A DNA stretch of 34,164 nucleotides from a virus. The DNA is taken from positions 1 to 34,164 of the IMG/VR virus record IMGVR_UViG_3300025086_000113; one strand, written 5' to 3'. The position numbers and the translations under genes are program-made. The first letter of the stretch is position 1; the number at the start of each line of letters is the position of its first letter. This document shows positions 30,540 through 34,164 of the stretch, in pieces. Under the pieces are notes generated by a model that worked only from the letters and a program-made list of their open reading frames with translations, did no database searches and was not told where the DNA came from.

Positions 30540-30760
30540 TGGAACCCTATATCTTTTTTGTCTTCTTCTCCGCAATCGTTCTACCGACAGGAGAGGTTAA
30601 GACATTAACGCAGCACGTGACTGAGTGTCCTTCAGAAGAGGTAGTCGATCAGATGCATGTGCCTAAATTAAATAAAGGTGAGATAGTAGACTGGGCTGCA
30701 GCGTGTAAGCCCATTACTCTTTTACTAGAAGTACCAACAGCAGAGAAGATAGGAACATAA
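30539..30760 (+). CDS. Small protein with N-terminal hydrophobic segment
   Basis: 73 residues from ATG 30539, overlapping the previous stop; GTG 30536 is also possible. The N-terminus (EPYIFFVFFSAIVLPTGEV) is a hydrophobic helix that could act as a signal or anchor. The rest is polar with two Cys (VTECPSEEVVDQ, WAAACKPITLLLEV) that might form a disulfide outside the cytoplasm. Its stop overlaps the next start (TAATG). It could be a small exported protein; lysis or envelope roles are open. Confidence 0.55.
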   Translation: MEPYIFFVFFSAIVLPTGEVKTLTQHVTECPSEEVVDQMHVPKLNKGEIVDWAAACKPITLLLEVPTAEKIGT

Positions 30761-31050
30761 TGCCCCCACCCCGTAAGCCTAGCAAAATGCCACCACGTAA
30801 TAAGAAGAACTTTCGACCTACCAAGTCGGGAGCAGGTATGACTGCTGCAGGTGTAAAGGCATATAGAAAAGCAAACCCCGGTAGTAAACTAAAGACTGCC
30901 GTTACCGGGACAGTTAAGAAAGACAGTAAGGACGCCAAGAGACGTAAATCATTTTGTGCTAGGTCCGCAGGTCAGATGAAGAAGTTTCCAAAAGCTGCGA
31001 AAGACCCGAACAGCCGTTTACGGCAAGCACGTAGACGTTGGAAATGCTAG
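30760..31050 (+). CDS. Highly basic protein, DUF6321-like
   Basis: 96 residues, about 30 percent Lys plus Arg. The core GAGMTAAGVKAYRKANPGSKLKTAVTG, then KRRKSFCARSAGQMKKFP and SRLRQARRRWKC is the DUF6321 pattern seen in many cyanophages and pelagiphages (from memory). Two Cys, one in SFCARS and one C-terminal. The N-terminus is Pro/Lys-rich (PPPRKPSKMPPRNKK). Its role is unknown; it is a strong candidate for DNA or RNA binding, perhaps in the virion. The TAATG overlap couples it to the upstream gene. Confidence 0.75.
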   Translation: MPPPRKPSKMPPRNKKNFRPTKSGAGMTAAGVKAYRKANPGSKLKTAVTGTVKKDSKDAKRRKSFCARSAGQMKKFPKAAKDPNSRLRQARRRWKC

Positions 31051-31063
31051 AGGAGATTTAAAT

Positions 31064-31582
31064 ATGGCATTATCAAAATTTTTAAGGGCTTTCTTAACGG
31101 TGAACCCTTTAGCAAGAACAAGCAAATCTAAATCTCTTGCAGAGACTAAAGCAGGACTTGAAAGGATTTTGCAAGAGGGTAGTGAGGCTACTGCTGCAGA
31201 GAGAAAGAAAGCACGTCAAAGATTGCGTGAATTAGACAAAGCAGAGGCTACTGAAAATGTACAGCGTTCAGCAAAGCAGTCTAAAGCAGCACCAGAAAGT
31301 GCAGCAAAGAAAGAGAAACTTGCTCCACCTGCCTTAAAAATAGATTCATTACCTGATGACTTTAATAAAGGGGGAAAGGCCACAAAGAAAGTACCCGTTA
31401 TTTCTATTGGCGTAGGCATGGCTGAAATGAAAAAAGGCAAAGCCAAGATGATGCGTGGGGGTATGGCGAATAAAAAAGAGCATATGTATGTAGCAGGTGG
31501 AAGTGTCACAGATAAGATGAGTCCCGGTCTACGTGCTTTAAATAAAACACGCCCTGACGTTGTTAAAAAAATATTAAGTTAG
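31064..31582 (+). CDS. Lys-rich protein with an RGGM motif
   Basis: 172 residues, ATG 31064 with GAGGAG upstream. A short N-terminal hydrophobic part (ALSKFLRAFLTVNPLA) is followed by a Lys/Ala/Glu helix (about 25-90) and a Gly/Lys/Met segment (GMAEMKKGKAKMMRGGMANKK, about 120-143) with VAGGSVTDKMSPGLRALNKTRP after it. The RGGM motif recurs in the 664-residue virion protein and, in tandem, in the 137-residue protein encoded at 32104. The final SPGLRALNKTRPDVVKK phrase is also common in marine phages. Probably virion-associated; binding to DNA or membrane is inferred from charge. Confidence 0.6.
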   Translation: MALSKFLRAFLTVNPLARTSKSKSLAETKAGLERILQEGSEATAAERKKARQRLRELDKAEATENVQRSAKQSKAAPESAAKKEKLAPPALKIDSLPDDFNKGGKATKKVPVISIGVGMAEMKKGKAKMMRGGMANKKEHMYVAGGSVTDKMSPGLRALNKTRPDVVKKILS

Positions 31583-31586
31583 TTTT

Positions 31587-32114
31587 GTGCATCCCGTTGA
31601 AGCTGATATAAGAAAGTGGTCACATGAATTTCTTGAAGTACCTAATGAGAAACTTAATGGACTACCACCGTGTCCCTACGCCAGACAAGCATGGCTAGAT
31701 AATAAGGTTGTATTTAGCATAAACACAGGGCTAGATGGTTTAGCTAAAGAGGTAGCAGACTTTAATGAACACGACTATGATATAGTTGTATGGGCTAATG
31801 AAGTGCTACCCGAAATGGAATACCTAGATGGATGGTGTGATGGCGTAAACGAAGCCATGTCTATTGCAGGTAAAGATATGCACCTTATGGTGTTTCATCC
31901 AGACTATAGTGCAGAAGAAGCAGGTCTGGACTTTTTAGTTGAAGAAGGTGTGACAGATGACACACTAGAATATTGCATGGTGTTCGTGCAATTATTATCT
32001 AAGCTAGATGATGCAGCATTAAGTCTGGAAAAGTCTGGCTATTATAAACACTTCCCGGTGGATGTGTTTCATTCCCTAGTAATAGACAGAAGGAGTTTAA
32101 GGAATGGCAAATGA
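31587..32114 (+). CDS. Conserved protein, unknown (weak DUF1415 resemblance)
   Basis: 175 residues. The start is GTG 31587, with no good ribosome site; coupling to the preceding gene, which ends five bases upstream, is likely. The sequence HPVEADIRKWSHEFLEVPNE then LPPCPYARQAWLDNKVVFSI has a CPYA phrase like the CPFA of DUF1415. The remainder (YDIVVWANEVLPEMEYLDG, DMHLMVFHPDYSAEE, EYCMVFVQLLSKLDDAALS) is alpha/beta with alternating strands and helices, suggesting a ferredoxin-like fold. It resembles marine phage hypotheticals I recall. No catalytic residues identified. Confidence 0.55.
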   Translation: MHPVEADIRKWSHEFLEVPNEKLNGLPPCPYARQAWLDNKVVFSINTGLDGLAKEVADFNEHDYDIVVWANEVLPEMEYLDGWCDGVNEAMSIAGKDMHLMVFHPDYSAEEAGLDFLVEEGVTDDTLEYCMVFVQLLSKLDDAALSLEKSGYYKHFPVDVFHSLVIDRRSLRNGK

Positions 32115-32517
32115 TGAAATGTCGATAGACGAAATTAATAGACGTATGCAAAGTGAACTGAATGCATATAAATCTAGATTGAAAGATCAAGGGTTAGACG
32201 AAGAGCAAATTAACAGGGCTATGCAAGACTTCTTTGTAAAAAGAAAAACGAAGAAAAAAGCGAAAAAAATGACAGCGGCTAAAGGTGGTGTAGCTAAAAA
32301 GAAAATGGCTGGCGGTGGCATGGCTAAAATGGCTAAGAAGAAAATGCGTGGTGGCGGTGTTGCAGCTAAGAAGATGCGTGGCGGTGGAATGGCGAAACGT
32401 AAAATGGCCGGAGGCGGTATGGCTAAAATGGCAAAGCGCAAAATGATGGGCGGTGGCATGGCTAAAATGGCTAAGAAGAAGAAAATGATGCGTGGTGGAA
32501 TGGCAAAGAAGAAGTAA
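32104..32517 (+). CDS. Lys/Gly/Met-repeat protein (histone-tail-like)
   Basis: 137 residues, ATG 32104 with AAGGAG eight bases upstream, overlapping the previous gene by 11 bases. The N-terminal ~45 residues are an ordinary acidic-basic helix (SIDEINRRMQSELNAYK, EEQINRAMQDFFVKRKTKK). From residue ~58 to the end it is a repeat of a GGGMAKMAK(K/R)KM-type unit, with KMRGGGMAK and KMMGGGMAK variants. The tail has about 35 percent Lys plus Arg, and Gly and Met make up most of the rest. It should bind nucleic acid or acidic surfaces. A SET-domain methyltransferase gene starts at its stop codon (TAATG), so its lysines are candidate methylation targets. The link is inference. Confidence 0.6.
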   Translation: MANDEMSIDEINRRMQSELNAYKSRLKDQGLDEEQINRAMQDFFVKRKTKKKAKKMTAAKGGVAKKKMAGGGMAKMAKKKMRGGGVAAKKMRGGGMAKRKMAGGGMAKMAKRKMMGGGMAKMAKKKKMMRGGMAKKK

Positions 32518-32867
32518 TGCCGTATGTATCAGATTCGTCTGTACATGGGCAAGGTGTTTTTGCAGATAAGGACTATGCTCAAGGAGATACTATTGAGTTG
32601 TGTCCTTATCTCATTGCAGACAAGGATGACTTTGCAGACACTTGTATCTTACATGACTACATGTTTTACTCGCCTTACGAAGACGATGAAGATTATTTTG
32701 TACCGCTTGGTCTTGCTATGGTATACAATCATAGTGAAACTCCAAACGCTGAATGGAATATTGCAGATGAAGATGAAAGATTTATTAGGTTCTTTGCTGT
32801 TGACGATATAAAAAAGGGTGAAGAAATACTACATGATTATGGTGAACAGTATTGGGAAAGTAGATAA
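32517..32867 (+). CDS. SET-domain protein methyltransferase
   Basis: 116 residues, TAATG overlap with the Lys-rich gene. The SET landmarks are in order: SSVHGQGVFADKDYAQGDTIE (residues 7-27), PLGLAMVYNHSETPNAEW with the NHS-x2-PN motif at 71-77, FFAVDDIKKGEEI (92-104) and LHDYGEQYW (105-113), including the catalytic-region Tyr of DYG. It has no pre- or post-SET cysteines, like other small prokaryotic SET proteins. The family transfers methyl groups from S-adenosylmethionine to protein lysines. The target is unknown: candidates are the adjacent Lys-rich protein, a host ribosomal protein or RNA polymerase. It overlaps the next gene by one base. Confidence 0.85.
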   Translation: MPYVSDSSVHGQGVFADKDYAQGDTIELCPYLIADKDDFADTCILHDYMFYSPYEDDEDYFVPLGLAMVYNHSETPNAEWNIADEDERFIRFFAVDDIKKGEEILHDYGEQYWESR

Positions 32868-33226
32868 TGCCTAAACTTATAGAAGGTTCAAAATTCCGTA
32901 CCGAAGTTGTGGCACTTGGCACAACGAATAAAACAAATATATATACTGTACCTGCAAATTTTTCTTCTCACTTAGAAAACTTAATGGTTAGTAATTTACA
33001 TTCAAGCGCAGTAAATCTTACTTTAGATTTATTTCATGCAGAGGATAATACAGAGTACACACTACTTACTGCACATCCTGTTGCTGCAAACTCGCACGAA
33101 TCAATTTTTACTGTAGATAAACCTTTATATCTTCATGCGGGTGATATTATAAAATGCACAGCAGGTACATCTAGTAAGTTGGTTGTTGTCACATCATGTG
33201 AAGAATTTTTTGACCCAAACAGATAG
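32867..33226 (+). CDS. Small beta-rich protein, likely virion component
   Basis: 119 residues with no cysteine-free core motif of an enzyme: KFRTEVVALGTTNKTNIYTVPAN at the start, then HLENLMVSNLHSSAVNLTLDLF, a hydrophobic strand set (EYTLLTAHPVAANSHESIF) and LYLHAGDIIKCTAGTSSKL. This alternation of strands with polar turns is characteristic of small marine phage structural proteins (decoration, neck or tail knobs). Similar proteins are found next to terminase or portal genes in related phages, but no such gene is in the window. Function is inferred from composition. Confidence 0.55.
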   Translation: MPKLIEGSKFRTEVVALGTTNKTNIYTVPANFSSHLENLMVSNLHSSAVNLTLDLFHAEDNTEYTLLTAHPVAANSHESIFTVDKPLYLHAGDIIKCTAGTSSKLVVVTSCEEFFDPNR

Positions 33227-33234
33227 GATAGGAT

Positions 33235-33438
33235 ATGCCCCCACCTCAAACTAAAAAGAAAAAAGCTAAAAGCAAAGTTAATCAGGCTGGTAATTATACA
33301 CAGCCAGAGTTGAGAAAAAGAATATTCAATAGAATTAAAGCTGGTTCAAAGGGCGGTAGGCCCGGTCAGTGGTCAGCAAGAAAAGCACAAATGACTGCCC
33401 TAGCTTATAAAAGGGCAGGTGGTGGATACAGAAACTAA
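33235..33438 (+). CDS. Small basic protein, DUF5872-like
   Basis: 67 residues, ATG 33235 with AGGATAGGAT directly upstream. A Lys-rich N-terminus (PPPQTKKKKAKSKVNQAG) leads to ELRKRIFNRIKAGSKGGRPG and QWSARKAQMTALAYKRAGG. The KGG-PGQWSARKAQ phrase is typical of a family common in cyanophages and pelagiphages (DUF5872, from memory). It is predicted to be a short helix pair with nucleic acid-binding potential. The stop TAA shares its last base with the start of the oxygenase-like gene. Confidence 0.7.
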   Translation: MPPPQTKKKKAKSKVNQAGNYTQPELRKRIFNRIKAGSKGGRPGQWSARKAQMTALAYKRAGGGYRN

Positions 33439-34164
33439 TGCCACCACGTAACCACAGGGACTGGACAAAGACACCCAAGGTAGAATATATAAACTCCCTT
33501 ATATACTCTGACTATTATTTGTATGAGCAGGAATTAGAGAATATCTTTTCTAAGGTCTGGGTTCCTATGTGCCATTCCAGTGAATTACCAAATTTAGGTG
33601 ACTTCAGAAAGACGCAGATAGCCTTACAGAATGTCGTAGCTGTACGCTTTGAAGGTGGCGTAGTTAGAACATTCCTTACAGATAAGGTGCAAGCACCTGC
33701 TGGCAATGACCTATCTTTAACATACCATTCAGGTAGCTGGACTGAACTACCATGTGAAGTCAAACATGGTGGTATGGTCTGGACTACCCTAGATACAAAC
33801 CCGTCTATGAGTGTAGATGAGTGGACTGCTGGCGCATTTGATTGCATAGCCGATGCCATAGACACTGAAGAAATGGAAGTGTTTCACTACCATAAGGCTA
33901 TCATAGATACTAACTACAAGCTGTGGCATGACACTAACAGTGAGTTCTACCACGACTTTATGCACTACTTTAATCGTGTGTCAGGATTCAACGATGAATA
34001 CTTTGCTAGAAAAAATATACCGTTTGATAACGGACACGTCAACGTCAGTAGCTTCACAGTTAACTACGAGGAATACGATGGCTTTGAGGATAGAGGAGAA
34101 CTTAGTTTCCCTAACCTCCCTCCAAACCAATGGTATATGGTTGACCTTTTCCCCGGATTTAATT
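33438..34164 (+). CDS. Rieske oxygenase-like protein (methanesulfonate monooxygenase alpha-like), 3'-truncated
   Basis: The frame starts at ATG 33438 (TAATG overlap) and is open to the window end: about 242 residues are visible. The N-terminus (YEQELENIFSKVWVPMCHSSELPNLGDF, residues 29-56) matches the opening of ring-hydroxylating oxygenase alpha subunits. The catalytic side has NYKLWHDTNSEFYHDFMHYFNR (159-180), with E169, H172 and H176 in place of the family's D/E-x2-H-x3-4-H mononuclear iron ligands. Between them the expected Rieske CxH...CxxH is missing: residues 60-115 hold only C106 and no CxH. I recall that HMO-2011 carries a gene annotated as methanesulfonate monooxygenase. If the cluster is lost, this may not be an oxygenase. 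The C-terminus is outside the window. Confidence 0.7.
   Translation, partial: MPPRNHRDWTKTPKVEYINSLIYSDYYLYEQELENIFSKVWVPMCHSSELPNLGDFRKTQIALQNVVAVRFEGGVVRTFLTDKVQAPAGNDLSLTYHSGSWTELPCEVKHGGMVWTTLDTNPSMSVDEWTAGAFDCIADAIDTEEMEVFHYHKAIIDTNYKLWHDTNSEFYHDFMHYFNRVSGFNDEYFARKNIPFDNGHVNVSSFTVNYEEYDGFEDRGELSFPNLPPNQWYMVDLFPGFN

Follow-up and report, generated by a model that had tools for sequence, protein, structure and literature searches.

The window analyzed here, the whole 34,164-nt stretch of virus record IMGVR_UViG_3300025086_000113 (IMG/VR), comes from an HMO-2011-type marine podovirus. It encodes a protein with a repeat tail rich in lysine, glycine and methionine, here called KG, and directly after it a protein consisting of a SET domain (Table 1). 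The interval 32104-32867 covers the KG and SET genes together, SET by itself being 32517-32867. Both ORFs lie where the preliminary description had placed them (32104-32517 and 32517-32867) and overlap by one base in the sequence TAATG.

Table 1 Features around the KG and SET genes in the window
Feature	Position	Strand	Basis and remarks
Basic protein with C-terminal module bearing GKAKMMRGGMANKK	31064..31582	+	In SET-carrying and SET-less relatives; possible second substrate
phrog_28122 protein, acidic (pI 4.5)	31587..32114	+	phrog_28122 E 2.7e-70; constant 5' neighbor of KG
KG protein, 137 aa	32104..32517	+	ORF, repeat tail, purifying selection, always 3' of the phrog_28122 gene in relatives; proposed substrate
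Recombined cassette (last ~50 KG codons and entire SET)	32368..32867	+	Nearest SET-carrying phages, 88-91% to L168/L001
SET protein, 116 aa	32517..32867	+	Predicted vSET-like protein lysine methyltransferase (Pfam PF00856, motifs, AlphaFold/Foldseek)
phrog_1276-like gene 3' of SET	32867..33226	+	One of about eight families at that place in relatives
Product homologous to HMO-2011 gp61	33438-34163		Runs off the window end

The phrog_28122 protein of the window is 73% identical to HMO-2011 gp66 across 99% of its length, and the phrog_28122-KG order and a downstream gp61-type gene are common to the window and HMO-2011. Puniceispirillum phage HMO-2011 and Roseobacter phage CRP-345 both share with the window phrog_28122 followed by KG, which is gp77 in CRP-345 and an unannotated ORF between gp66 and gp65 in HMO-2011 (L043 4485-4652; about 50631-50798 of GU557055.1, minus strand); both are without SET. 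The structural model of the window's phrog_28122 protein (31587-32114; pLDDT 87) found no significant fold match among PDB structures. HMO-2011 gp61 (L043 6844-7926) is annotated as the alpha subunit of methanesulfonate monooxygenase hydroxylase (PF00848); the Rieske CxH...CxxH iron-sulfur motif is absent from both gp61 and the 33438-34163 product, and so the oxygenase activity annotated for the gp61-type product looks doubtful. The strongly basic character ascribed earlier to the products of the genes at 30760, 31064 and 33235 is borne out by their pI values of 11.9, 10.3 and 11.7. The first of these (30760-31050) is a DUF6321 protein, whose basic domain of ~70 aa is found alone or at the C-terminal end of large phage proteins belonging to several PHROGs, a distribution that looks as if the domain were a reusable tail. 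The C-terminal module of the 31064-31582 product, with GKAKMMRGGMANKKEHMYVAGGSVTDKM, is common to many relatives, and the N-termini in front of it are variable.

The SET domain makes up the whole of the 32517-32867 product, which matches the Pfam profile PF00856 over positions 1-105 of 105 (E=7.2e-14, 52.5 bits versus a cut-off of 22.4). The NHS-x2-PN and GEE...DYG motifs previously read from the translation are present as NHSETPN and GEEILHDYG, accompanied by HGQG, and the protein carries the cofactor and active-site signature of the family (GxG, NHxxxPN and the catalytic tyrosine in DY(G)). An alignment of 33 relatives reveals that the motifs HGxG, NHSxxPNAEW and HDYG..YW are kept, that G13, N71, H72, P76, N77, Y108 and G109 are invariant, and that the active-site motifs are unchanged in relatives as distant as 61% identity. 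The AlphaFold model (pLDDT 82) predicts the fold of the SET family: it has 317 PDB matches with E<=0.001, the best of them SET domains, and the top Foldseek match is vSET (3kma; E 3.6e-9, TM 0.78/0.86). Residues 4-116 align to vSET, which profile and single-sequence searches also place first. SET is a complete, real gene for a minimal stand-alone domain that has no pre- or post-SET zinc domains. The protein is strongly acidic (pI 4.05, net charge about -21), and its pooled dN/dS is ~0.26, a value from uncorrected counts with saturated synonymous sites.

KG has the opposite charge, with a pI of 11.0 and a net charge of +31.5. A helical-looking, non-repetitive N-terminus of ~45 aa is followed by a tail of GGGMAKMAK/MRGGG units, and the lysine-rich repeat recognized in the preliminary description withstands randomization: the tail holds five GGG[MV]A units, a number that never arose when the same tail was shuffled 20,000 times (maximum 2). 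Synonymous codons differ among the repeat units and the pooled dN/dS among relatives is ~0.17 (uncorrected counts), and therefore the repeat is maintained at the protein level and the gene is real; the dN/dS values of KG and SET together indicate that both are kept up as proteins. KG has no Pfam match above the cut-off and no PHROG match, and these searches reveal no homology to a known DNA-binding family. Its likeness to histone-like and DNA-condensing tail proteins is purely compositional. A protein of such composition might bind DNA, RNA or membrane, and KG may be a virion or DNA-binding protein.

Linkage between the two genes in relatives had been set beforehand as the test of their pairing, and it is one-sided. 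Our first IMG/VR scan for SET gave 41 loci, in each of which, where there is enough upstream sequence, a KG ORF lies directly 5' of SET. With the addition of two further scans, KG is immediately upstream in 90/90 distinct SET proteins of the HMO-type phage group with upstream sequence; 10 further distinct SET proteins, for which the upstream sequence is missing, stand outside the 90. KG is directly 5' of 0/26 cellular SETs and 0/26 SETs of other phages. The spacing is a one-base overlap in 64 of the 85 pairs measured and is at most 203 nt. The converse half of the expectation fails. Annotated phage records gave no tblastn match to KG under low-complexity filtering, and the KG motif was therefore sought by DNA pattern. 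In the 118 loci picked out by this pattern, phrog_28122 precedes KG wherever upstream sequence exists and SET is next in fewer than half. Since KG loci found by DNA pattern form a sample skewed to one KG motif, an independent later scan was made by phrog_28122. Among distinct phrog_28122 proteins, 87 are accompanied by KG and SET, 52 by KG alone and 1 by neither, so that KG occurs without SET in 52/139; the 64 relatives nearest to the window by phrog_28122 protein, with sufficient room, all have KG, but only 3 have SET (KG without SET, 61/64). These linkage counts rest on a KG-specific pattern, and the loci L196, L200 and L222, where a wrong basic ORF was taken for KG in the contrasts described below, lie outside them.

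KG is therefore a core gene that often occurs without SET, which is no obligate partner but an accessory, repeatedly gained or lost in the slot behind KG. It also follows from the frequency of KG without SET that KG does not depend on methylation. Among relatives, the gene 3' of SET comes from some eight families and the 5' gene is always KG. In SET-less phages the slot after KG holds a 36-48-aa ORF (e.g. MRKKLVYYFALALLNIGKPFTCIGNWFWKKHRDVLDW...) or simply the next gene. This short ORF (for example in L053, L057 and L061) is conserved, has a hydrophobic stretch, ALLNIGKPFTCIGNWFWKKHRDVLDW, and is near SET in 4/92.

The phrog_28122 tree implies ~8 changes of SET presence, two of them forced by well-supported branches, and larger phrog_28122 sets give 7-10 changes of SET state, in the same slot each time, few of them on well-supported branches. 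The closest relative of the window on the phrog_28122 tree, L075, is without SET. The window itself preserves a trace of such an exchange. Its phrog_28122 gene and KG positions 32104-32367 are closest to the SET-less phages L055, L075 and L086, and the remainder of KG and all of SET resemble SET-carrying phages, which places a crossover inside the KG repeats. SET has thus moved laterally, and the 3' half of KG moved together with it.

The sequence of KG also differs with the SET state. KG proteins of SET phages have more lysine and more KKK runs than those of SET-less phages. GKAKM occurs in 77/87 distinct KG proteins with SET versus 0/83 without SET, and the position after GGGMAKMA is K or R in 85/85 copies with SET versus 30/70 without SET. 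KG-type peptides are GGGMAKMAKKKM and GKAKMAKKK, and the SET-less version is GGGMAKMASKKM. The window is an exception in that GKAKM is missing from its KG and present in its 31064 protein. Independent contrasts of KG sequence against SET all go in the same direction, with 2-4 of them on supported branches; with so few supported independent changes, the match may reflect the shared descent of adjacent genes. For this reason we rejected lysine content and motif association as proof of coevolution of KG and SET despite the strong raw counts.

The explanation that we favor, with moderate confidence, is that SET is an active, host-derived, vSET-like lysine methyltransferase that acts on the tail of KG. 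A phage lineage would have taken the SET gene from a SAR116-type host. The gene would have settled in the accessory slot behind the core KG gene, on the late-gene strand, where the one-base stop/start overlap would allow SET to be co-produced with KG. The most likely step thereafter is that SET methylates lysines of the KG repeat tail. The acidic enzyme (net -21) would meet a strongly basic and probably unfolded tail (net +31), much as SET enzymes act on histone tails. Methylation could then tune the binding of the tail to its partner, be it DNA, RNA or membrane. We infer the catalytic activity of SET, the role of KG as substrate and any function of KG.

The probable origin of SET also underlies the main rival of a KG substrate. 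SAR116 is the host clade of HMO-2011, and the closest cellular homologs of SET are SAR116 proteins. In the SET tree, HMO-phage proteins cluster with those of SAR116 (93% SH-aLRT), apart from the SETs of large phages, and the phage gene probably came from a SAR116-type host. The SAR116 genes (Candidatus Puniceispirillum), like other bacterial stand-alone SETs, encode proteins of the same size with 50-56% identity; they differ in being chromosomal. They stand alone, flanked by metabolic genes, in neighborhoods of at least two unrelated kinds, and we detected no KG gene beside them in the neighborhoods examined. It is conceivable, though we regard it as rather improbable, that SET acts on a protein of the host, be it of the ribosome, translation, the nucleoid or RNA polymerase, in keeping with the presumed role of its SAR116 ancestor in the cell, and that it is an auxiliary gene that landed once behind KG and was held there by recombination at the KG repeats. 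The solitary cellular kin, the grouping of the phage proteins with them and the existence of SET without KG in large phages all fit such a history. In the window a crossover can be seen within the repeat tract; as natural crossover sites, the KG repeats would alone hold SET behind KG, and adjacent genes are co-inherited anyway. By itself, however, a host target leaves unexplained why the boundary between KG and SET persists when that between SET and the next gene has been broken many times, and why the sequence of KG matches the SET state.

It seems unlikely that SET modifies several basic phage proteins with RGGM/GKAKM-type tails, namely KG, the 31064 protein and the N-terminus of the 3091 protein. 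Candidate tails do exist, since the 31064 product bears GKAKMMRGGMANKK together with its conserved C-terminal module and the 3091 product carries MMARGGMVKKMAVGG; yet the 31064 module is also conserved in SET-less phages and its gene is not adjacent to SET. Least probable, indeed very unlikely, is that SET is an inactive or incidental gene, functionally unrelated to KG and kept by linkage: its accessory distribution and the short unrelated ORF often found in the same slot of SET-less phages would agree with this, but its active-site motifs are invariant down to 61% identity and its pooled dN/dS, with synonymous sites saturated, is ~0.26.

The nearest known system by structure is vSET (A612L) of Paramecium bursaria chlorella virus PBCV-1, also a stand-alone minimal viral SET domain of ~119 aa and the best PDB match (1n3j/3kma); both proteins end in YG..YW.SR. 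PBCV-1 infects a eukaryote, and vSET methylates the host histone H3 at K27, as a dimer. Unlike vSET, the SET protein of the window belongs to an alphaproteobacterial phage, is encoded directly after the gene for a lysine-rich phage protein and lacks a histone target; we know of no H3 in bacterial hosts. Phage SET genes as such are already known, because they are carried by large phages (IMG/VR contigs of about 100-230 kb, LR756501) and by Stenotrophomonas phage Ps15 (ORF62; PMC9025141). These proteins are also small and phage-encoded, but they fall on another branch of the SET tree, lack a KG neighbor and sometimes come two in tandem. The tandem pairs of the large-phage contigs (L261 3938-4841, L268 3938-4833, L272 3483-4405) lie 5' of a gene whose product starts with MQKIINEIKLDFDDVLI. 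A scan of annotated phage records for SET returned a 735-kb uncultured phage as its sole match. A similar logic applies to Chlamydia NUE, a SET enzyme from a bacterium whose substrates are basic, lysine-rich (histone-like) proteins, although NUE itself is a larger secreted effector (PMC2904774).

The paper that reviews HMO-2011-type genomes does not mention a SET domain or methyltransferase. In the literature searched, which covers few subscription journals, we found no report of a SET-KG pairing and nothing relevant on cyanophage SET or lysine methylation of phage virion proteins. Small SET proteins are thus known from a eukaryotic virus, from bacteria and, by annotation, from phages (PMC9025141); what looks new is that SET is constantly paired with a phage protein resembling a histone tail.

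Should KG prove to be the substrate, these phages would possess a lysine-methylation writer with a genetic link to its own target, within a phage group that is among the most abundant in the ocean. We suggest, only tentatively, that the phage makes a polycationic repeat protein resembling a histone tail and marks it with methyl-lysine by means of a dedicated SET enzyme derived from a host, a phage-internal protein-methylation switch acting on packaging, ejection or takeover that is present in some lineages and missing in close relatives. Because SET-plus and SET-minus relatives occur naturally, the function is directly testable. We found no known substrate for the stand-alone bacterial SETs, and methylation of KG, if true, would be the first clue to the role of free-standing bacterial SET enzymes.
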